Positions 54,959 through 64,000 of a DNA stretch of 64,000 nt are shown here, piece after piece. The position numbers and the translations under genes are program-made. The DNA comes from Pseudoxanthomonas suwonensis. Lineage in GTDB: Bacteria; Pseudomonadota; Gammaproteobacteria; Xanthomonadales; Xanthomonadaceae. Under the pieces are notes generated by a model. That model saw only the letters and a list, made by a program, of their open reading frames with translations, was not told the origin of the DNA and ran no database searches. How positions within the stretch are numbered: position 1 is the first letter of the stretch; each line of letters begins with the position of its first letter. Where the stretch lies: contig NZ_PDWP01000002.1 in the NCBI RefSeq assembly GCF_010093235.1, positions 1-64,000 on the forward strand, read 5' to 3'.

Positions 54959-55972
54959 TCAGCCCGGCGGCGGTACCGACACGCCCGCGTCGGTCTGCAC
55001 CACCGGCTTGAGGGTGCCGTCCTCGTTGTACTGCAGGTACTCGACGGTGACGGCGCGGCGGCCGAGGGCGCCTTCCTGGTCGCCGATGCTGAGCGCGGCG
55101 TTGTGCAGGAAGATGTACCACTGGCCCTTGAACTCGGCGATGCCCGGGTGGATGGTGAAGCTGTTCTTCCCGGAGCCGGTCAGCTCGCCGCGGTACGTCC
55201 ATGGCCCCTGGATGGACGGGGCGGTGGCGTAGGAGATGCGCTCGTCGGTGTGGTCGCTGCGGTCCAGCGAGGCGTAGGTCAGGTAGTAGGTGTCGCCGCG
55301 CTTGTGCAGCCAGGGACCTTCCTCGAAGTGCGGCGGGGTGATCTCGGTGATCTCCCCGTCGAGCTCGATCATGTTGGGCTTGAGCCGGGCGATGTAGCAG
55401 TGGCGGTTGCCCCAGGCGATCCAGGTGCTGCCGTCGTCGTCAGTGAACACCGTTGGGTCGATGTCCTCCCAGCTGTGCTCGCCCTTGGGCGTCATCTGGT
55501 TGGTGATGAGCGCCGAGCCCTTCGCGTCCACGAATGGCCCGGTGGGAGAATCCGCGACGGCGACGCCGATCGCCTTGCCCGGGTGGGTGTCGTCGTGCTC
55601 CACCGCGGTGTAGAACCAGTAGCGGCCATCCTTTTCGATCACCTGCGAGGCCCAGGCATCGGCCTTGGCCCACCGGAAATCGGTGGCCTTCATGACCGGG
55701 CCGTGCTCGGTCCACTGCTTCATGTCGCTGGTGGAGTACACCAGCCACTGGCGCATGTTGAACATCTCCTCGCCGCGGGCCTCGTCGTGGCCCACGTAGA
55801 GATAGAGGCGGTCGCCGACCACCAGTGGGGCCGGGTCGGCGGTGAAGCGGTCGCGGAACAGCGGGTTCGATCCGGGCACGGGTGTGCCGGCGGCGGCCAG
55901 CGGGCCGGCCGCCAGCAGGAGCGGCAGCAACCCCGCCAGGCCCAGGCGTCGGGTGACGCGGAGGGCGCTCAT
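54959..55972 (-). CDS. Exported glycoside hydrolase, GH43-type
   Basis: 337 residues from ATG at 55972 (MSALRVTRRLGLAGLLPLLL) with a signal peptide to about residue 28. The five-blade propeller active-site residues typical of GH43 are seen: Asp46 (DPAPLVVG), Asp172 (WEDIDPTVF) and Glu near 217 (HFEEGPWL). Such enzymes cut arabinose or xylose side chains and xylo-oligosaccharides. The ATGA overlap with the upstream esterase gene suggests both act on the same plant polysaccharide. Confidence 0.88.
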   Translation of the reverse strand: MSALRVTRRLGLAGLLPLLLAAGPLAAAGTPVPGSNPLFRDRFTADPAPLVVGDRLYLYVGHDEARGEEMFNMRQWLVYSTSDMKQWTEHGPVMKATDFRWAKADAWASQVIEKDGRYWFYTAVEHDDTHPGKAIGVAVADSPTGPFVDAKGSALITNQMTPKGEHSWEDIDPTVFTDDDGSTWIAWGNRHCYIARLKPNMIELDGEITEITPPHFEEGPWLHKRGDTYYLTYASLDRSDHTDERISYATAPSIQGPWTYRGELTGSGKNSFTIHPGIAEFKGQWYIFLHNAALSIGDQEGALGRRAVTVEYLQYNEDGTLKPVVQTDAGVSVPPPG

Positions 55973-56925
55973 CGGGCGGCCCCGCGGCCGGCGGCCGGCT
56001 CCAGCCAGCCATGCATCTTCATCCACGCGGCGAAGGCCTCGAACCAGCCGGTGCTGGTGGTCGGCTTGGGGTACATGCCAAAGCCGTGGCCGCCCTGCTC
56101 GTAATAGTGGAACTCCACCGGGCGGCCCGCGGCCTGCCAGCTTTCCACCAGGCCGAAGCCGCGGCCGGCGAACAGGCCGTCGTCGGCGGCGATGGCGACG
56201 AACAGCGGCGGCGCGTCGGCAGGCACGTCCAGCGGCGCCAGCGGGCCGTAGATGTCGCCGATGAAGGCCGGCTTCGCATCCTCGACGGTGAGCGTGGTGG
56301 CCATGGTGAGCATCGCGCCGGCGGAGAAGCCGATCATGCCGATGCGGTCCGGATCCACGTTCCATTCCTGCGCACGGCTGCGCACCAGGGCGAAGGCGGA
56401 GCGCGCGTCGGCGATCTGTGGTGCCAGCGAGGCGAAGGAGGAGGCCGGCTCGATGCGGCCGGTCGGCATCGGGCCGGCGAAGATCTCACGCAGGGCCTGC
56501 GCGAACCCGTCCGGATCCGATGGGGTCTGCCTGAGCCGGTACTTGAGCACGAACGCCGCCACGCCACGGTCGGCCAGCGCCTGCGCCACCTGCCAGCCCT
56601 CGTTCTCCATCGACAGGGTGACGAAGGCGCCGCCGGGCGCGACGATCACCGCCGTCCCGGTGGCCTTGGCCGGATCGGGCAGGAAGGGCGTGAGCGTGGC
56701 CTCGGTGACGTTGCGGACGAAGGTGCTGCCGTACTGGCGATGCCAGGCCTCCGGGTGGCGTGCATCCGGCAGCGGGCCGGTCGGCAGCCTGATCGCGTTA
56801 GGCTGGGCCGGGACCGGGATCGGGGTGACGCGGTCGTCCTGCGCGAAGGCCGGCAAGGCAAGGCAGGACAGCAGGGCCGCCAGCGCGGCGGTGCGGAAGG
56901 ACAGGGCGCGGGACTCCAGTGGCAT
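55969..56925 (-). CDS. Exported alpha/beta hydrolase (acetyl-esterase-like)
   Basis: 318 residues (MPLESRALSFRTAALAALLS) with a signal peptide ending at PAFAQ. APGGAF (oxyanion), nucleophile Ser201 in GFSAG, an Asp near 250 (AIAADDGLFAG) and His in QGGHGFGMYP form the triad. The family includes acetyl xylan esterases. It is first in a two-gene operon with the GH43 enzyme, so deacetylation of xylan-type substrate is a fair inference. Confidence 0.85.
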   Translation of the reverse strand: MPLESRALSFRTAALAALLSCLALPAFAQDDRVTPIPVPAQPNAIRLPTGPLPDARHPEAWHRQYGSTFVRNVTEATLTPFLPDPAKATGTAVIVAPGGAFVTLSMENEGWQVAQALADRGVAAFVLKYRLRQTPSDPDGFAQALREIFAGPMPTGRIEPASSFASLAPQIADARSAFALVRSRAQEWNVDPDRIGMIGFSAGAMLTMATTLTVEDAKPAFIGDIYGPLAPLDVPADAPPLFVAIAADDGLFAGRGFGLVESWQAAGRPVEFHYYEQGGHGFGMYPKPTTSTGWFEAFAAWMKMHGWLEPAAGRGAAR

Positions 56926-57251: not shown

Positions 57252-58103
57252 ATGGCTGCTCTCGACCCGCGTGCGCGCACCCTCATCGAATCCCGCCAGG
57301 CCGACATCGTCGATGCCTGGGTCGCCGGATTCGCCCATTCCGCCCAGGACGGGCGGACCTCGTCGCGCGAACTGGAAGCCCAGGTGCGCGAGTTCTGGCA
57401 GCTGTTCCTGCGCGCGATCGCCAGCGGCGACACCGCGGACCTGCAGGGCGGGGCATGGGAGGAGACACGCCACTTCCTCGAGGACCTGTCGCGCCAGCGC
57501 GTGCTCAAGGGCTTCAGCGCCGCTGAGACGGCAACCTTCGTGTTCTCGCTCAAGCAGCCGCTGTTCGACGTGGTCGAGCAGGGCTTCGCGGCCGAGCCGC
57601 AGCAGATGGCCGCGCGCCTGCGAGAACTGTCCGGTCTGCTGGACCAGCTGGGCCTGCACACCGTCAAGGTGTTCCAGAAGAACCGCGAGGACGTGATCAA
57701 GCGCCAGCAGGAGGAGATGCTGGAGCTGTCCACCCCGGTGGTGAAGCTGTGGGATGGCGTGCTGGCGCTGCCGATGATCGGCACCCTGGATTCGCAGCGC
57801 ACACAGGTGGTCATGGAATCGCTGCTGCAGCGGATCGTGGAGACCGGCTCGGAGATCGCGATCATCGACATCACCGGCGTGCCCACCGTGGACACCCTGG
57901 TCGCCCAGCACCTGCTCAAGACCGTCACCGCCATCCGCCTGATGGGCGCCGATGCCATCATCAGCGGCGTGCGTCCGCAGATCGCCCAGACCATCGTCCA
58001 CCTTGGCCTGGACCTGCAGGGCATCGTGACCAAGGCCAACCTCGCCGACGCCCTGGCGCTGGCGCTCAAGCGCACGGGCGTGTCCGTGACCAAGGCGGCC
58101 TGA
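57252..58103 (+). CDS. rsbR: RsbR-type stressosome scaffold protein
   Basis: 283 residues from ATG 57252 (MAALDPRARTLIESRQADIV). The first 150 residues form an all-helical N-terminal domain of the RsbRD kind; the C-terminal STAS domain (about 160-283) includes GVPTVDT (Thr215) and RPQIAQT (Thr247), matching the positions phosphorylated by RsbT in Bacillus RsbR. In B. subtilis RsbR and RsbS build the stressosome that sequesters the kinase RsbT. The N-terminal domain is the presumed sensor. One base after it the GTG of rsbS begins. Confidence 0.9.
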   Translation: MAALDPRARTLIESRQADIVDAWVAGFAHSAQDGRTSSRELEAQVREFWQLFLRAIASGDTADLQGGAWEETRHFLEDLSRQRVLKGFSAAETATFVFSLKQPLFDVVEQGFAAEPQQMAARLRELSGLLDQLGLHTVKVFQKNREDVIKRQQEEMLELSTPVVKLWDGVLALPMIGTLDSQRTQVVMESLLQRIVETGSEIAIIDITGVPTVDTLVAQHLLKTVTAIRLMGADAIISGVRPQIAQTIVHLGLDLQGIVTKANLADALALALKRTGVSVTKAA

Positions 58104-58469
58104 GTGGAGCGCATCCCGATCCTGCAGATGGGCGATGTCCTGCTGGTCACCATCCAGGTGGACATGCACGACCAGCTGGCCCTTGCGCTCCAGGACGACC
58201 TGGCAGAGCGCATCCGCGCCACCTCCGCGCGCGGGGTGCTGATCGAGATCTCCGCGCTGGACATCGTCGATTCCTTCATCGGCCGCATGATCGCCACCAT
58301 CTCCGCCCTGGCGGCGGTGATGGACGCGCGCACAGTGGTGGTGGGCATGCAGCCGGCGGTGGCGATCACCCTGGTCGAGCTGGGGCTCAACCTCACCGGT
58401 GTGTCCACCGCGCTCAACGTGGAGCGCGGCATGCGGCTCCTGCGCCAGGCGGGTGCGGAAGCCGGATGA
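58104..58469 (+). CDS. rsbS: RsbS-type STAS protein (RsbT antagonist)
   Basis: 121 residues from GTG 58104 (MERIPILQMGDVLLVTIQVD), a stand-alone STAS domain. ISALDIVDSFIGRM holds Ser57, equivalent to the RsbT-phosphorylated Ser59 of Bacillus RsbS, and QPAVAITLVELGLNLTGVST follows. The stop overlaps the rsbT ATG (ATGA). Confidence 0.92.
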   Translation: MERIPILQMGDVLLVTIQVDMHDQLALALQDDLAERIRATSARGVLIEISALDIVDSFIGRMIATISALAAVMDARTVVVGMQPAVAITLVELGLNLTGVSTALNVERGMRLLRQAGAEAG

Positions 58470-58864
58470 GCGCCAGCGGCCAGCTACCGGTCCGGACCGA
58501 ACAGGACGTCGTGCTCGCGCGCCAGGCGGCGAGGCAGGCGGCGGTGGCCTGCGGGTTGCGCCTGGTTGACCAGACCAAGCTGATCACCGCCGCCAGCGAG
58601 CTGGCGCGCAACGCCGTGGTCTACGGCGGCGGCGGCACCATGAGCTGGAGCACGGTGCGCGATGGAATGCGCCAGGGCGTCCGCCTGGAGTTCGTCGACC
58701 AGGGCCCGGGCATCGCCGACATCGAGCAGGCGCTCACCGACGGCTGGACCTCGGGCAACGGCATGGGCCTGGGCCTGTCCGGCTCGCGCCGGCTGGTGGC
58801 CGCGTTCGAACTGGAGAGCACGCCGGGGAAGGGGACCCGGGTGGCGATCACCAAATGGGCGTAG
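58466..58864 (+). CDS. rsbT: RsbT-type serine/threonine kinase
   Basis: 132 residues from ATG 58466 (MSASGQLPVRTEQDVVLARQ). A GHKL ATPase fold with N box ASELARNAVVYGGG (Asn49) and DQGPGI (Asp78), GMGLGLSGSRRL lid. In Bacillus it phosphorylates RsbR and RsbS and then activates RsbU; no RsbU is next to it here. Confidence 0.92.
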   Translation: MSASGQLPVRTEQDVVLARQAARQAAVACGLRLVDQTKLITAASELARNAVVYGGGGTMSWSTVRDGMRQGVRLEFVDQGPGIADIEQALTDGWTSGNGMGLGLSGSRRLVAAFELESTPGKGTRVAITKWA

Positions 58865-59871
58865 GGTTCGTCGGCCAGGCCACGCGCGCAATCGTGGTGG
58901 AGGAGGCCACCCAGGCAGGCCAGGTGCGCCGCGAGGCGCAGGAACTGGCGCGGCTGGCCGGCTTCGGCGAGCTCGACGCCGGGCGCGTGACCCTCGTGGC
59001 CATGGAGGTCGCCACCAACGTGCTGCGCCACGGGCGCGGCGGACGGGTGCTGCTGGCGCTGGTGCAGGGCCGGACCGGCCTGGGCGTGGAGGTGTGCGGC
59101 ATCGACCGCGGGCCGGGTTTCTCGCTGGCGAACTGCCTGCCGGACGGCTACTCGACCGGTGGCACGCCGGGCCAGGGGCTGGGAGCGATCAAGCGCCAGT
59201 CGCAGGTGTTCGACGCGTGGTCCGACGCGCGGGGCGCGGTGGTGCTGGCGCGGATCTACGGCGAGCGCACGCGCGACGAGGACCTCGGCTATGGCGCGCT
59301 GCGCGTGCCGATGCGCCAGGAGACGGTATGCGGCGATGCCTGGTACCTGGGTGCCGACGGCGACCGCGTGTCCGGCGCGCTGGTCGACGGCCTGGGCCAT
59401 GGCCTGCTCGCGGCCGAGGCGGCCGAGACCGGGATTGCCGCCGCCGCCGAAGCGGCAGGTCTGGACGTGGAGGAGGTGGTCGCGCGCATGCACGCGCGCA
59501 TGTCCTCCACCCGCGGCGGCGCGGCGGCGGCTTTCATCCACGACCCCGGGGCCGGAGTCGTGCGTTTCGCGGGCGTCGGCAACATCGCCGCGGCGATCCA
59601 TGAGCCGGGAATGCCGGGGCGCGGCCTCGCCTCGCATCCGGGCATCGTCGGCAGCCAGTACCGCCGCGCGCCGGCCTTCGTGGTGCCCGCGACGCCTGGT
59701 GCACTGCTGCTCATGCACAGTGACGGCCTGCAAACCCGCTGGAGCCTCGCGCAGTACGAGGGCCTGGCCTTCCGCCACCCGGCGCTGGTGCTGGCGGTGC
59801 TGCTGCGCGATTTCGACCGCGGCCGCGACGACACCAGCGCCCTTGCCGTTCGCCTCGGAGGCCGGACGTGA
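58855..59871 (+). CDS. Fused GHKL ATPase and SpoIIE/PP2C phosphatase (RsbX-like)
   Basis: 338 residues from ATG 58855, overlapping rsbT by 10 bases. Residues 1-140 are a second GHKL domain (AMEVATNVLRHG with Asn55; CGIDRGPGF), and residues 145-338 a PP2C domain (CGDAWYLGADGD, LVDGLGHG, DDTSALAV). The C-terminal part corresponds to RsbX, which removes phosphates from RsbR/RsbS and resets the switch; the added ATPase domain may bind a STAS partner or act as a second kinase. Confidence 0.88.
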   Translation: MGVGFVGQATRAIVVEEATQAGQVRREAQELARLAGFGELDAGRVTLVAMEVATNVLRHGRGGRVLLALVQGRTGLGVEVCGIDRGPGFSLANCLPDGYSTGGTPGQGLGAIKRQSQVFDAWSDARGAVVLARIYGERTRDEDLGYGALRVPMRQETVCGDAWYLGADGDRVSGALVDGLGHGLLAAEAAETGIAAAAEAAGLDVEEVVARMHARMSSTRGGAAAAFIHDPGAGVVRFAGVGNIAAAIHEPGMPGRGLASHPGIVGSQYRRAPAFVVPATPGALLLMHSDGLQTRWSLAQYEGLAFRHPALVLAVLLRDFDRGRDDTSALAVRLGGRT

Positions 59872-60731
59872 CCTGTTCCACCGACATCGAAGCCGAGCTT
59901 GGGCGCCTGCGCGCCGAGAACGCGGCCCTGCGCGCCGAACTGGACGAGACCAACCAGGGCGTGCTGGCGCTTTACGCCGAACTGGACCAGCAGGCCGAGC
60001 AGCTCAGGGAGGTTTCCGAGCTCAAGAGCCGGTTCCTGTCGTACATGAGCCACGAGTTCCGCACGCCGCTGGGCTCGATCCTGAGCATCACCCGGATCCT
60101 GGAGGACGGCCTGGACGGGCCGCTCAACACCGAGCAGCTGCGGCAGGTGAAGTTCGTCAGTGCCGCGGCGATCGAGCTGCGCGACATGGTCGACGACCTG
60201 CTGGACCTGGCCAAGATCGAGGCCGGGCGCATCTCGATCTCGCCGGCCTGGTTCGACCTGATGGACCTGTTCTCGGCCCTGCGCGGCATGTTCCGTCCGC
60301 TGGTGGAGGGTGCCGGGAACGTGGAGCTGGTGTTCGAGGAGCCACCGGCGCTGCCGATGCTCTACACCGACGACAAGAAGCTGGCGCAGATCCTGCGCAA
60401 CTTCATTTCCAACGCGCTCAAGTTCACCCCGCAGGGCCGGGTTTCGGTATCGGCGCGGCCGGAGGGCGCCGGGCACGTCCGCTTCAGCGTGCGCGATACC
60501 GGCATCGGCATCCCCGGGCACATGATCGGAGCCCTGTTCGAGGACTTCGTCCAGGTCGACTCGCCGATCCAGAAGCGCCTGCGCGGCACTGGCCTGGGCC
60601 TGGCCCTGTGCCGCCGCTTCGCCGAACTGCTCGGCGGCAGCGTCGGGGTGCACAGCGTGGTTGGCCAGGGTTCGGAGTTCCACGTGGTCCTGCCCATCGC
60701 ACTGCCGGAGGAGAAGGATGAGGGACGGTAA
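59868..60731 (+). CDS. Soluble sensor histidine kinase
   Basis: 287 residues from GTG 59868 (overlap GTGA with the previous stop). An N-terminal coiled coil (about 7-50) takes the place of a sensor domain, then His62 in YMSHEFRTPL, the N box FISNALKFTP, and DTGIGI with a GTGLGLALC lid. No membrane segment. Lacking a sensor, it probably receives its input by contact, for example from RsbT. Confidence 0.9.
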   Translation: MTCSTDIEAELGRLRAENAALRAELDETNQGVLALYAELDQQAEQLREVSELKSRFLSYMSHEFRTPLGSILSITRILEDGLDGPLNTEQLRQVKFVSAAAIELRDMVDDLLDLAKIEAGRISISPAWFDLMDLFSALRGMFRPLVEGAGNVELVFEEPPALPMLYTDDKKLAQILRNFISNALKFTPQGRVSVSARPEGAGHVRFSVRDTGIGIPGHMIGALFEDFVQVDSPIQKRLRGTGLGLALCRRFAELLGGSVGVHSVVGQGSEFHVVLPIALPEEKDEGR

Positions 60732-62631
60732 CCGGATCCTGGTGGTGGACGACAACGCCGCTACCCGTTACTCGGTGCGGCGCGTGCTCGAACACCACGG
60801 CTACAGCGTCGAGGAGGCCGGTACCGGTGGCGAGGGACTGGAGCAGCTCGCGCGCCTGCCGTTCGATGCGCTCGTGCTGGACGTGAACCTGCCGGACATG
60901 AGCGGCTTCGACCTGGTGCGCACGCTGCGCGCCGACCCGGCCACGAGCCTGCTGCCGGTGGTCCACGTCTCGGCCGCCTCCATCGCCACCGGCGACGTGA
61001 TCACGGGGCTGGACGCCGGTGCCGACGCCTACCTGGTGCATCCGGTCGACCACGGGGTCCTGCTGGCCACGCTGCGCACCCTGCTGCGCGCGCGCCGCGC
61101 CGAGGACGCCCTGCACGCCAGCGAGGTGCGTTTCCGCGAGATCTTCGAGCACGTCGGCGCGCCGATCGCGGTGGTGACCGGCGACCTGGAGGTGCGCGAA
61201 GCCAACCACGCATTCAAGCGCCTGCTGGCGGAGGCCGGCGTGGACGGCCTGGCCGCGCTGTTCGGCGAACAGCCGGTCGATGCGCTGTGCGACGCGCTGC
61301 GCCGCGGCGGCAGCTGGAAGGGCAGGTTCTGCCTGCACACGCCGCGCGGGCCGCGGGTGACCGAGTGGCGGGTGACGCCGCACAAGGATCCCGGCGCGGG
61401 GCTCCTGTACGTGGAAGACCAGACCGAGCAGCACGCGCGCGAGCAGGAGCATCGCCAGCGCCTGGATACGGCCAATTCGGAGCTGGCCGTCCAGATCGCC
61501 GAGCGCGAGCGCACCGAGATGGAGCTGCAGCAGGCGATGAAGATGGACGCGCTGGGCAAGCTCACCGGCGGCATCGCGCACGACTTCAACAACATGCTGA
61601 CCGGCATCATCGGTGCCCTGGACATGATCAACGGCGCGGTGGAGAGCGGGCGGCTGGAGCGCATCCCGCGCTTCGCGTCGGTCGCCTCGACCTCGGCGTT
61701 CCGCGCCGCGGCGTTGACCCAACGCATGCTCGCGTTCGCGCGCAAGCAGTCGCTGGACACCACCGCGTTCGAGCTCGGGCCGCGCGTTTCCAGCCTTTCG
61801 GAGCTGCTGGCCCGCTCGATCGGCGAGAACATCGCCCTGGAGTTCGACCTGGCCGATGGCCTGGTGGTGGTCGCCGACGCCAACCAGCTGGAGAGCGTGG
61901 TGCTGAACCTGGTGATCAACGCCCGCGACGCCCTGCGCGGATCGGGGCGGATCACCATCGCGGCACGCCCGGCCGGCTCGGTGCCGGCCGATCTGCCGCC
62001 GGGCGAGTACGTGAGCCTGACGGTTTCCGACGACGGCCCGGGCATCCCGCCGGAGATCGTCGGCAAGGTGTTCGAGCCGTTCTTCACCACCAAGCCGATC
62101 GGGCAGGGCACCGGCCTGGGCCTGTCGATGACCTACGGCTTCGCCCGCCAGAGTGGTGGAGCCGCACGCGTGCACAGCGTGGTCGGCCAGGGGACGACCA
62201 TCGAGCTGCTGCTGCCGCGCGGCGACAGCGCCGCGTCCGAGGCGGCGGTGGAAGATGCCCGGGCGCCGGGCGGTGCCGAGCGCATCCTGCTGGTGGACGA
62301 CAACGAGCTGGTGCGCGGCATGGCGCTGGAAGTGCTGGTGGATGCCGGCTACGAGGTGGTGGACTGCGCCGATGCGGGCGAGGCGCTGCAGGCGGTCGAG
62401 GGGCGCGAGTTCGACCTGCTGCTGACCGACGTCGGCCTGCCGGGCATCGGCGGCCGCGAGCTGGCCGATCGGGTGCGCGAGCGCCATCCGGAGATGCCGG
62501 TACTGTTCATCACCGGCTACGCGGAGAACGCGCAGAACCGGCAGAGCTTCCTCGGCGAGCGCATGGACATGCTGCTCAAGCCGTTCAACCTCAACGAGCT
62601 GCTCCGCGCCGTACGCCGCAAACTCGGCTAA
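60718..62631 (+). CDS. Hybrid kinase: REC-PAS-HisKA-HATPase-REC
   Basis: 637 residues from ATG 60718, overlapping the preceding kinase by 14 bases. REC1 (about 5-122) has Asp55 but His108 (AYLVHPVD) in the place of the usual Lys. A PAS-like domain spans about 133-240, a short coiled region leads to His288 in GGIAHDFNN, then the ATPase (NLVINARDAL, SDDGPGI), and REC2 (522-637) with Asp571 and Lys621. No DNA-binding or GGDEF output is present, so the signal must leave by phosphotransfer or binding. Confidence 0.92.
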   Translation: MRDGNRILVVDDNAATRYSVRRVLEHHGYSVEEAGTGGEGLEQLARLPFDALVLDVNLPDMSGFDLVRTLRADPATSLLPVVHVSAASIATGDVITGLDAGADAYLVHPVDHGVLLATLRTLLRARRAEDALHASEVRFREIFEHVGAPIAVVTGDLEVREANHAFKRLLAEAGVDGLAALFGEQPVDALCDALRRGGSWKGRFCLHTPRGPRVTEWRVTPHKDPGAGLLYVEDQTEQHAREQEHRQRLDTANSELAVQIAERERTEMELQQAMKMDALGKLTGGIAHDFNNMLTGIIGALDMINGAVESGRLERIPRFASVASTSAFRAAALTQRMLAFARKQSLDTTAFELGPRVSSLSELLARSIGENIALEFDLADGLVVVADANQLESVVLNLVINARDALRGSGRITIAARPAGSVPADLPPGEYVSLTVSDDGPGIPPEIVGKVFEPFFTTKPIGQGTGLGLSMTYGFARQSGGAARVHSVVGQGTTIELLLPRGDSAASEAAVEDARAPGGAERILLVDDNELVRGMALEVLVDAGYEVVDCADAGEALQAVEGREFDLLLTDVGLPGIGGRELADRVRERHPEMPVLFITGYAENAQNRQSFLGERMDMLLKPFNLNELLRAVRRKLG

Positions 62632-62800
62632 AACCGGGGTCAGAGTGCACTTTTGAGGGAAACCCCACCCGTGGGCGCGTCGTTTCCTGACCGGTGGTGG
62701 GGCAGGGCGCACTTTCCACGGCATGCGCTTGTGGCGCGCGTCAGGGATTGGTGCGCCCTGGCTTAGGCTTTTTCCTGAAAGTGCACTCTGACCCCGGTTT
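62631..62800. repeat. Inverted-repeat element (MITE-like) between convergent genes
   Basis: Perfect 23-nt inverted repeats, 62631-62653 and 62778-62800, containing GGGGTCAGAGTGCACTTT, bound a 170-bp element. The outer bases are part of the TAA stop of the hybrid kinase (62629-62631) and the TGA stop of the citrate synthase gene (62800-62802). The similarity extends inwards a few bases (GAGGGAAA / CAGGAAAA). Related single copies lie at 54409 and 54922. Confidence 0.75.
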
Positions 62801-64000
62801 CAGTCGTCGGGGGTGGTCTCGGGGGGGAGGCCTGTGTAGCTGGCGCGCGGGCGGATCAGGCGGCCCAGGGCCTGCTGTTCCAGCACGTGGGCCAGCCAGC
62901 CGGCGAGCCGGCCGGCGGCGAAGATCGACAGCGCCGGCGCGGCCGGCAGGCCGTAGGCGAAGCAGATCGCGCCAAGCATGAAGTCCACGTTCGGCCGCCG
63001 CTCGCTGGCCTGCTCGGCCGCGGCGACCACGCTGTCCAGCAGTTCGATCGTCGCCGGCGGCAGCGGCTGCTGGCGCAGCATCGCCATCAGCTCGGTCGCG
63101 CGCGGATCGCCGTCCGGATAGAGCGCATGGCCGAAGCCGGGCAGGTCCTCGCCCTGGCGCCAGCGCGCCAGGATCAGGCGCTGCACGTCGCGGCTCTGGC
63201 GCGCGTCCTCCAGCAGCGCGTACACGCGTGCCGTGGCGCCGCCGTGGCGGGGACCGGCCAGCGCGGACAGGCCGGCGCACACGGTCGCGTGCAGGTGCGC
63301 GCCGGTGGAGGCGACCACGCGCGCGGCGAACGCGGAGACGTTGAGCTCGTGGTCCGCGCACAGCACCAGCGCGGCGCGGACCAGCTCGGCGAATCCTTCG
63401 TCTCCCGGGCGCCAGGTGTCGGCCAGCAGGCGGTGCACCGGGCCGGAGGGGCGGCGCGCGACCAGCAGGCCGGCGTTCTGCCGCAGCAGGGGGGCGGCCA
63501 GGGCGCGGCGGGTGGCCTGGTCGGCCTGGAACGAATGCGGCACCTGCAGCGCCAGCAGCGGGATCACGCCCATCGCGCGGGCCAGCGGCGGCAGGTCCGG
63601 ATCGGTGGCCAGCGCCACCACGCGTGCCGGCCAGTCGCCCGGTGGATCGGCGAACGGATCCTGGGTGCCGCAGTCCCACAGCAGGCGGGCGGTGTCCTCG
63701 AGCGTGGCGCCCTCGCGCACCATCCGCACCGCCGAGCGGCCCCGGTAGTACGGCCCGTCCGGGCGGATCAGCGAGATCCGGGTCTCCAGCACCGGCAGGC
63801 CGCGGTCCAGGCTCTGCGCGGCCCCGCGGGCCGGGCCGCGGCCGAGGCGCTTGCGCTGGGCCAGCCGCTCCACGTCCTGGCGCCGGTAGACGCGGCTGCG
63901 ATGGTCGCGCCCCGGCCGGGACTCCAGCAGCCCGCGGCTGACGTAGGCGTACAGCGTGGCCGGGCTGATGCCCAGCAGGCGGCAGGCCTCGGAAGCGGGA
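62800..64000 (-). CDS. Citrate synthase-family protein with N-terminal HTH, partial
   Basis: The gene runs off the window at 64000, so the start is not seen. The visible N-terminal part (LLGISPATLYAYVSRGLLES then RVYRRQDVERL) is a MerR/excisionase-like HTH; residues after it are a citrate synthase fold with the His motifs PRHGGATA and GFGHALYPDGDPRA and Asp in RPNVDFMLGA. It may be a citrate/methylcitrate-type synthase that binds DNA or a related condensing enzyme; the substrate cannot be read. The stop touches the inverted repeat. Confidence 0.88.
   Translation of the reverse strand, partial: PASEACRLLGISPATLYAYVSRGLLESRPGRDHRSRVYRRQDVERLAQRKRLGRGPARGAAQSLDRGLPVLETRISLIRPDGPYYRGRSAVRMVREGATLEDTARLLWDCGTQDPFADPPGDWPARVVALATDPDLPPLARAMGVIPLLALQVPHSFQADQATRRALAAPLLRQNAGLLVARRPSGPVHRLLADTWRPGDEGFAELVRAALVLCADHELNVSAFAARVVASTGAHLHATVCAGLSALAGPRHGGATARVYALLEDARQSRDVQRLILARWRQGEDLPGFGHALYPDGDPRATELMAMLRQQPLPPATIELLDSVVAAAEQASERRPNVDFMLGAICFAYGLPAAPALSIFAAGRLAGWLAHVLEQQALGRLIRPRASYTGLPPETTPDD

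Follow-up and report, generated by a model that had tools for sequence, protein, structure and literature searches.

The window analysed here, 64,000 nucleotides at the start of contig NZ_PDWP01000002.1 of Pseudoxanthomonas suwonensis, contains a plus-strand operon of six genes (57252-62631) that encodes, in this order, the stressosome proteins RsbR, RsbS and RsbT, a fusion of an RsbT-like ATPase with a PP2C phosphatase, a soluble histidine kinase and a hybrid histidine kinase (Table 1). The rsbR and rsbS genes abut, and the later genes overlap by 4 (rsbS/rsbT), 10 (rsbT/fusion), 4 (fusion/kinase) and 14 (kinase/hybrid) bases; coordinates, overlaps and Pfam domains all agree with the gene and domain set described in a first-pass annotation of the sequence. 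Pfam assigns only kinase, PAS and receiver types to the output genes, and the operon encodes no DNA-binding and no cyclic di-GMP (c-di-GMP) output protein. The operon is read here, with a probability of roughly 50%, as a stressosome operon with a histidine-kinase phosphorelay output, in which a free RsbT-type ATPase would gate the soluble kinase in trans through a coil at the N-terminus of that kinase.

Table 1. Genes and features of the stressosome operon, in window coordinates.
Feature	Position	Strand	Details
rsbR: RsbRD_N sensor-like domain + STAS	57252..58103	+	Pfam; phospho-Thr T215 (57894-57896), T247 (57990-57992)
rsbS: single STAS, GTG start	58104..58469	+	Pfam; phospho-Ser S57 (58272-58274)
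rsbT: GHKL-type switch kinase	58466..58864	+	Pfam HATPase_c
Fusion gene	58855..59871	+	N-terminal RsbT-like ATPase ~58903-59247; RsbX-like PP2C phosphatase ~59359-59853; Pfam HATPase_c_2 + SpoIIE
Soluble histidine kinase without folded input domain, GTG start	59868..60731	+	Phospho-acceptor His H62 (60051-60053)
Kinase coil, 46 residues, leading into the HisKA helix	59880..60017	+	Core ETNQGVLALYAELD ~59940-59990
Hybrid kinase REC1-PAS-HisKA-HATPase-REC2	60718..62631	+	Pfam
REC1 of hybrid	60733..61092	+	Asp D55 kept; conserved Lys replaced by His H108 (61039-61041)
REC2 of hybrid	62284..62616	+	Asp D571 and Lys K621 kept

In stressosomes, a shell of RsbR and RsbS holds RsbT; upon stress, RsbT phosphorylates both shell proteins and is released, and RsbX resets the complex. 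By their sequences, the first three genes would encode such a core: an RsbS with a phospho-Ser motif, an RsbR composed of a sensor, a linker helix and a STAS domain with two phospho-Thr residues, and a GHKL-type RsbT whose gene adjoins rsbS. The residues taken to be the phosphosites, by analogy with the Bacillus proteins, are preserved as first annotated, with T215 and T247 invariant in 15/15 aligned RsbRs and S57 in 12/12 aligned RsbS sequences. The best PDB match of RsbS is the Listeria RsbS (6qcm, E 3.5e-30), while the STAS part of RsbR matches Vibrio and Listeria RsbR, and the AlphaFold2 (AF2) model of RsbR (mean predicted local distance difference test score, pLDDT, 84.7) has Listeria innocua RsbR (7b0u) as its best PDB match over 288 alignment columns (template modelling score, TM-score, 0.48; root-mean-square deviation 7.5). 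A heme-globin sensor of the Vibrio kind was considered for RsbR and rejected, as residues 1-140 contain no invariant His among the aligned RsbRs. RsbT retains its ATP-binding motifs, as read from the alignment, and a PDB search at E 0.01 returned five matches with SpoIIAB as the best and no solved RsbT among them. Beside rsbR, a divergent single-domain receiver gene was observed in 10 of the 90 loci with rsbR (91 examined), namely L049, L050, L051, L106, L108, L109, L122, L127, L132 and L133, which include a named Luteibacter and of which L050 and L132 are apparently one contig; its product is a possible phosphate acceptor. RsbR lies in two frames in one draft genome (L245:10950-11831), through either an assembly error or a broken gene.

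Both domains of the ATPase/PP2C fusion annotated at first were found, and their reading has changed. Best among the PDB matches of the phosphatase half are 3zt9 (E 9.4e-20), a structure deposited under the name SpoIIE, and RsbX (3w40, E 1.5e-15), so that this half is RsbX-like; its GD, DGLGHG, SDG and RDD motifs are invariant in 12/12 aligned sequences. The protein has the metal-binding Asp motifs of a PP2C phosphatase, as RsbX does, but is not a single-domain protein, since it carries an N-terminal HATPase_c_2 domain. Read from the alignment, the ATP-binding motifs of this ATPase half are intact, and in the tree the half makes up a separate clade next to RsbT (26 rows, 99/97). The fusion protein is therefore better read as a reset phosphatase of RsbX type to which a second RsbT paralogue has been joined. 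Two loci (L192 and L193) encode two free RsbT-like proteins and a free phosphatase, an arrangement that is a plausible forerunner of the fusion gene, and four others (L184, L185, L204 and L205) have a phosphatase fused to an RsbT-type domain and no separate rsbT, with all four domains falling on the RsbT side of the tree.

The HisKA domain of the hybrid kinase scores just below the Pfam cut-off (25.7 versus 26.9 bits), and the protein falls below the NCBIfam cut-offs for PRK13557 (367.5 versus 631 bits) and CckA (341.8 versus 1000 bits). REC1 keeps its Asp pocket and Ser, but the Lys of the canonical receiver pattern (Asp pocket, Ser/Thr, Lys) is replaced by His in 12/12 aligned sequences and in 93 of 126 frames that begin with a receiver. 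This His also occurs in the second kinases of L173, L176, L178 and L179; the second kinase of L172 has Gln and that of L174 Ala. The substitution goes with the operon type and marks REC1 as a specialised receiver. A role for REC1 as the target of RsbT was rejected, given that no evidence supports it and that the domain is atypical.

The set of six genes is widespread but patchy. Thirteen of 200 genomes of the host's order match the fusion protein, and 12 of these, including the present one, have the six genes in the same order, which argues that the set is not a product of chance and bears out the co-occurrence that the first-pass annotation had proposed as a check. The thirteenth genome (G049) has the order R-S-T-phosphatase-kinase, and a second, phosphatase-like match in G095 (37%, L055) has no other operon gene found around it. 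The distribution is called patchy because only one of the three other listed genomes of the genus has the operon. A scan of named species with the kinase confirmed 375 of 415 stretches, of which the best 80 were analysed. With these, 128 loci were annotated (12 from the order, 80 from named species and 36 from a phylum sample); they are not all independent, since some named loci are apparently the same contigs as others (e.g., L069/L044, L132/L050 and L105/L186). The complete set is present in 89 of the 128 (11/12 from the order, 74/80 named, 4/36 from the phylum), and L175, L177 and L183 of the phylum loci have it with a more divergent hybrid. Among the six incomplete named loci, L081, L086, L116 and L131 are apparently cut by contig ends, L083 has two split genes and L129 gives no score with the coil model. 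The operon is also present in Xanthomonas, Stenotrophomonas, Luteibacter, Pseudomonas and Stutzerimonas; a 29-kb plasmid of Xanthomonas vasicola carries all six genes. The set is not particular to one lineage.

The soluble kinase contains Pfam HisKA and HATPase_c domains, and nothing scores over cut-off N-terminal of HisKA; in particular, no RsbU_N domain was detected there by Pfam at E 0.01. Its nearest relative from a named species, among the matches listed, is a Pseudoxanthomonas kinase (91%), and a search for viral copies gave 64 pattern matches, none confirmed. What precedes HisKA is a coil, which occurs once in the genome and is represented by a 46-residue profile (A5). This profile matches 17 of 398 genomes of the phylum, once each, at E 1e-12 or better and always within stressosome operons of the same type, and all 17 are among the 20 genomes with a full fusion gene (Fisher p 3.6e-27, a value that ignores relatedness). 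As 10 of the 17 genomes contributed rows to the profile, the independent part of this count is 7/7 together with absence from 381 genomes. When 385 genomes from the class of G347 were examined as a second sample, seven matches appeared, of which five are strong (E 2e-12 or better) and all lie in R-S-T-fusion loci; four of these five carry the fused domain described below, none contributed a profile row and one (G347) was also in the first sample. The other two are weak (E 1.9e-5 and 6.1e-4), with no stressosome genes in the stretches examined. Across 48 representatives, the mean majority is 0.92 in the coil core, 0.81 in the catalytic ATPase domain and 0.96 in the H-box helix. Among the coil residues, T28, N29, G31, L35 and Y36 of the window kinase are invariant.

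Kinases with this coil come in two forms, with and without an RsbT-like domain at their N-terminus. The fusion profile matches 46 of the 398 phylum genomes, and 38 of the 46 loci were analysed (leaving out G203, G230, G274, G282, G300, G351, G466 and G476); classed by domain models, 20 genomes have the full fusion gene. The next kinase lacks an RsbT-like domain, as in the window, in nine of them and carries one N-terminally in nine, and two (G242 and G413) have no kinase in the stretch. In all 17 coil genomes the kinase gene directly follows the fusion gene, with 14-93 bases from fusion end to coil where this third RsbT-like domain is absent and 492-548 where it is present; G747 (L244), from another class, has the coil and lacks the domain. 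Pfam finds an N-terminal HATPase_c_2 in 7/8 fused kinases scanned, L180 having two stretches of which the reported one is C-terminal, and L174 lay outside the scan. The AF2 model of the fused kinase of L172 (mean pLDDT 86.0) places an RsbT-like domain at 15-145, nearest in the PDB to SpoIIAB, and a single helix (173-259) that runs through the coil into HisKA; the model is of a monomer and silent on docking, and the modelled range starts slightly upstream of the likely Met, in the same frame. The first-pass annotation had called the window kinase sensorless, which stands insofar as no domain scores over cut-off before HisKA, but as the coil is common to the fused relatives, the kinase looks instead like one whose RsbT-type input domain is missing.

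Phylogenetic trees are consistent with this view. In the domain tree, which has only 131 columns and 22 open forks, all nine kinase-fused domains group in a single clade (99/98) on the side of RsbT. The window-type kinases (16 rows) form a clade (97/95) within a 22-row clade (100/99) that includes six fused kinases, and the RsbTs of window-type operons are nested beside those of fused-kinase operons (95/81). This topology favours a single gain of the RsbT-like domain and its probable later loss in the window lineage. Some fused domains are degenerate: judged by eye, the ATP-binding motifs are lost in L174 and in Caballeronia (L225), and Nonomuraea (L235) and Streptomyces (L231) show a degenerate N-terminal trace of 30.8 and 16.4 bits with a combined RsbT model. 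Shuffles of the Streptomyces segment (500) reach at most 3.4 bits, and with the fusion-type model neither Nonomuraea nor Streptomyces stands out.

The Streptomyces locus belongs to a stressosome operon on plasmid p1 of Streptomyces fungicidicus (L231:4237-8756), in which the gene after R-S-T-fusion encodes not a kinase but a GAF-PP2C phosphatase (GAF + SpoIIE) preceded by a similar coil. The kinship of this coil to that of the kinases rests on a 21-residue match of 26 bits to the kinase-coil model and on position, because the reverse search with the Streptomyces segment recovered three Streptomyces records only (two annotated as SpoIIE-family phosphatases, one without annotation) and not the proteobacterial kinase coil.

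Taken together, these data suggest the following model. RsbR and RsbS would form a sensing shell that holds RsbT, and on stress RsbT would phosphorylate both and leave. The fusion protein would reset the shell by docking on the STAS proteins through its RsbT-like domain and stripping the phosphates with its RsbX-like phosphatase. A free RsbT-type ATPase, most likely RsbT, would contact the coil, and since the coil leads into the phospho-acceptor helix, this contact is proposed to alter kinase activity, much as RsbT may act on the phosphatase RsbU by ordering its linker. RsbT is reported to order the RsbU linker into a coiled coil (PMC12143880). The soluble kinase would feed the neighbouring hybrid, whose REC2 would relay the signal to an output encoded elsewhere. 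Related operons have the RsbT-like domain as part of the kinase itself, and because the window kinase appears to lack it, RsbT or its fusion paralogue probably acts on the coil in trans. The first-pass annotation had proposed that released RsbT switches either the soluble kinase or REC1: the link to the kinase gains indirect support from the RsbT-like/kinase fusions and the near-confined coil, but nothing points to REC1, where the Lys is replaced. A broader reading, that RsbT-type Ser/Thr switch ATPases serve as histidine-kinase inputs through a dedicated coil portable between outputs (HisKA kinases, hybrids and the Streptomyces GAF-PP2C protein), is held more tentatively, at somewhat below even odds.

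Several observations weigh against gating of the soluble kinase by RsbT through the coil. The weak coil match of G868 (L247, E 1.9e-5) lies in a kinase gene on a 9.9-kb contig with no stressosome gene, and may be a true exception to the confinement of the coil to stressosome operons. Of the eight fused kinases in the tree, two (L170 and L171) are built on a hybrid-type core and branch on the side of the hybrids, at a great distance from the window kinase, so that the RsbT-plus-coil head occurs on more than one type of kinase core; in L180 the core is of the HisKA_2 type and the coil is absent. The choice between loss and gain of the domain rests on tree shape, which the kinase tree alone would not settle. 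Window-type RsbTs are no closer to the fused domains than other RsbTs are, with one column shared and four the other way, leaving no trace of RsbT taking over the missing role; convergence of window-type RsbT on the fused domains was accordingly rejected. The degenerate fused domains (L174, L225, L235 and L231) could mean that the input is being abandoned. An interaction between RsbT and the downstream kinase VvD1 of Vibrio vulnificus (VvRsbT-VvD1) was sought and not found, according to the part of the study cited here (PMC9237108).

The fusion paralogue, moreover, could equally be the coil partner. Its RsbT-like domain, with its distinct clade and intact motifs, is encoded directly upstream of the kinase in the coil genomes, and the fusion protein would in that case switch two ways, resetting the stressosome as well as gating the kinase; however, the kinase-fused domains group with RsbT rather than with the domain of the fusion protein, and the shell is the expected target of an RsbX-type phosphatase, so this assignment is considered unlikely. 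That the kinases only share a transcript with the stressosome or stand above it in the signalling order, for instance as controllers of the reset phosphatase, while RsbT has an unlinked target elsewhere, is judged to be distinctly improbable. Such an arrangement would suit an operon position that by itself gives no direction, the lack of a DNA-binding output among the operon's genes and the unlinked RsbV-like STAS protein of the genome, but the RsbT-like/kinase fusions and a coil nearly confined to such loci are hard to explain by co-transcription alone. RsbT or its paralogue might also phosphorylate the kinase or hybrid on Ser/Thr through a transient contact in place of regulatory coil binding, as proposed for Gram-negative stressosomes without RsbU_N targets in the portion of PMC9237108 consulted, and the ATP-binding motifs of RsbT are compatible with such an activity. 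The output proteins of L174, L225, L235 and L231, though, carry a fused domain without ATP-binding motifs that appear intact by eye, which makes phosphorylation by the fused domain unlikely as a general mechanism; this is the least probable of the alternatives. Gating of the soluble kinase through its coil, most likely by RsbT, remains the preferred reading.

A sigma factor branch of the Bacillus type was sought across the assembly (3.42 Mb, 66 contigs, 100% complete). RsbU_N has no match in the genome (of 14 control genomes only B. subtilis scored), and the SigBFG model gave five matches genome-wide, none over cut-off, the best three of which are taken from their length as RpoD-, RpoS- and RpoH-like. 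The only other SpoIIE-family match is a 247-residue PP2C, judged by eye to be of PrpC/Stp type. An unlinked RsbU or sigma-B branch was rejected on these grounds, and no genome-encoded RsbU or sigma partner, which the first-pass annotation had held up as contrary evidence, emerged. Its statement that RsbU, RsbV, RsbW-sigmaB and a DNA-binding output are absent nearby holds for the neighbourhood; for RsbV and RsbW it is limited to it. The unlinked RsbV-like STAS protein (G000:C66) is one of five STAS matches in the genome, along with two in the operon, one in an 819-residue frame and one beside chemotaxis genes (by eye), and of the 13 HATPase_c_2 matches in the genome, 11 are further ones that may include an RsbW. 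Flanking the operon on the minus strand are a convergent gene (62800-63999) that extends past the window end and whose product combines a helix-turn-helix at the N-terminus with a citrate-synthase domain, and, upstream, a glycosyl hydrolase family 43 gene and an alpha/beta hydrolase gene (54962-56925).

The window operon is a variant of known Gram-negative stressosome-kinase operons. As had been noted at first, RsbRST modules linked to two-component proteins are already known: the RSTX + VvD1/VvD2 system of Vibrio vulnificus likewise combines RsbR, RsbS, RsbT and an RsbX-type phosphatase with two-component proteins, and, in the cited sections, likewise has no RsbU downstream of rsbRST and no sigma-B (PMC9237108, PMC10014275). 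In the Vibrio system as described there, RsbR has a globin sensor, RsbX is a single-domain protein and the output is predicted to be c-di-GMP, whereas the window has an RsbRD_N-type RsbR without an invariant His, an RsbT-like/phosphatase fusion, and a coil kinase and double-receiver hybrid as outputs. Deletions of the stressosome module and of VvD1 are reported to give similar phenotypes (PMC10014275). Heinz 2022 (PMC9237108) distinguishes eleven downstream types for globin RsbRs, phosphorelays and RsbU_N proteins included, and cites phosphorylation of a Xanthomonas campestris RsbR. Proteobacterial RsbU_N stressosome kinases also place a histidine kinase downstream of RsbRST, with RsbT thought to be received by an N-terminal domain and a helical linker (PMC9237108; modelled in PMC12143880), but the window kinase and genome lack RsbU_N, and the corresponding element is the coil, which may or may not be joined by an RsbT-like domain in cis. 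The Bacillus subtilis RsbT-RsbU-RsbV-RsbW-sigma B pathway shares RsbR, RsbS, RsbT, an RsbX-like reset and a helical linker below the switch, yet the window has no RsbU_N and no sigma-B/F/G match over cut-off, and its output is histidine kinases. A plasmid of Variovorax paradoxus (INQ48_33595-33570) carries all six genes in the order of the window. On plasmid MP1 of the laboratory strain Deinococcus radiodurans R1 (DR_RS15570-15595; L223:3591-9395), a complete stressosome operon encodes two kinases after R, S, T and the fusion; the first of these kinases, unlike that of the window, is an RsbT-like/kinase/receiver fusion, which brings in the third RsbT-like domain; stressosomes in the Deinococcus group have been credited to a 2005 survey (PMC7358398). 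No published study naming the six-gene set or an RsbT-kinase fusion was found at the title and abstract level, and reviews of RsbRST outputs (Pane-Farre 2005, 2017) may already draw fusion architectures.

How released RsbT reaches its targets without RsbU is an open question in the field, as most of the downstream proteins considered in the cited parts of these papers lack RsbU_N. The coil and the natural RsbT-like/kinase fusions, that of Deinococcus radiodurans R1 included, make the question of RsbT targets approachable on single proteins. If the broader reading of RsbT-type ATPases as portable kinase inputs holds, the series from kinases with an intact RsbT-like domain, through those with a degenerate one, to those with none would constitute a natural record of an input in cis turning into one in trans.

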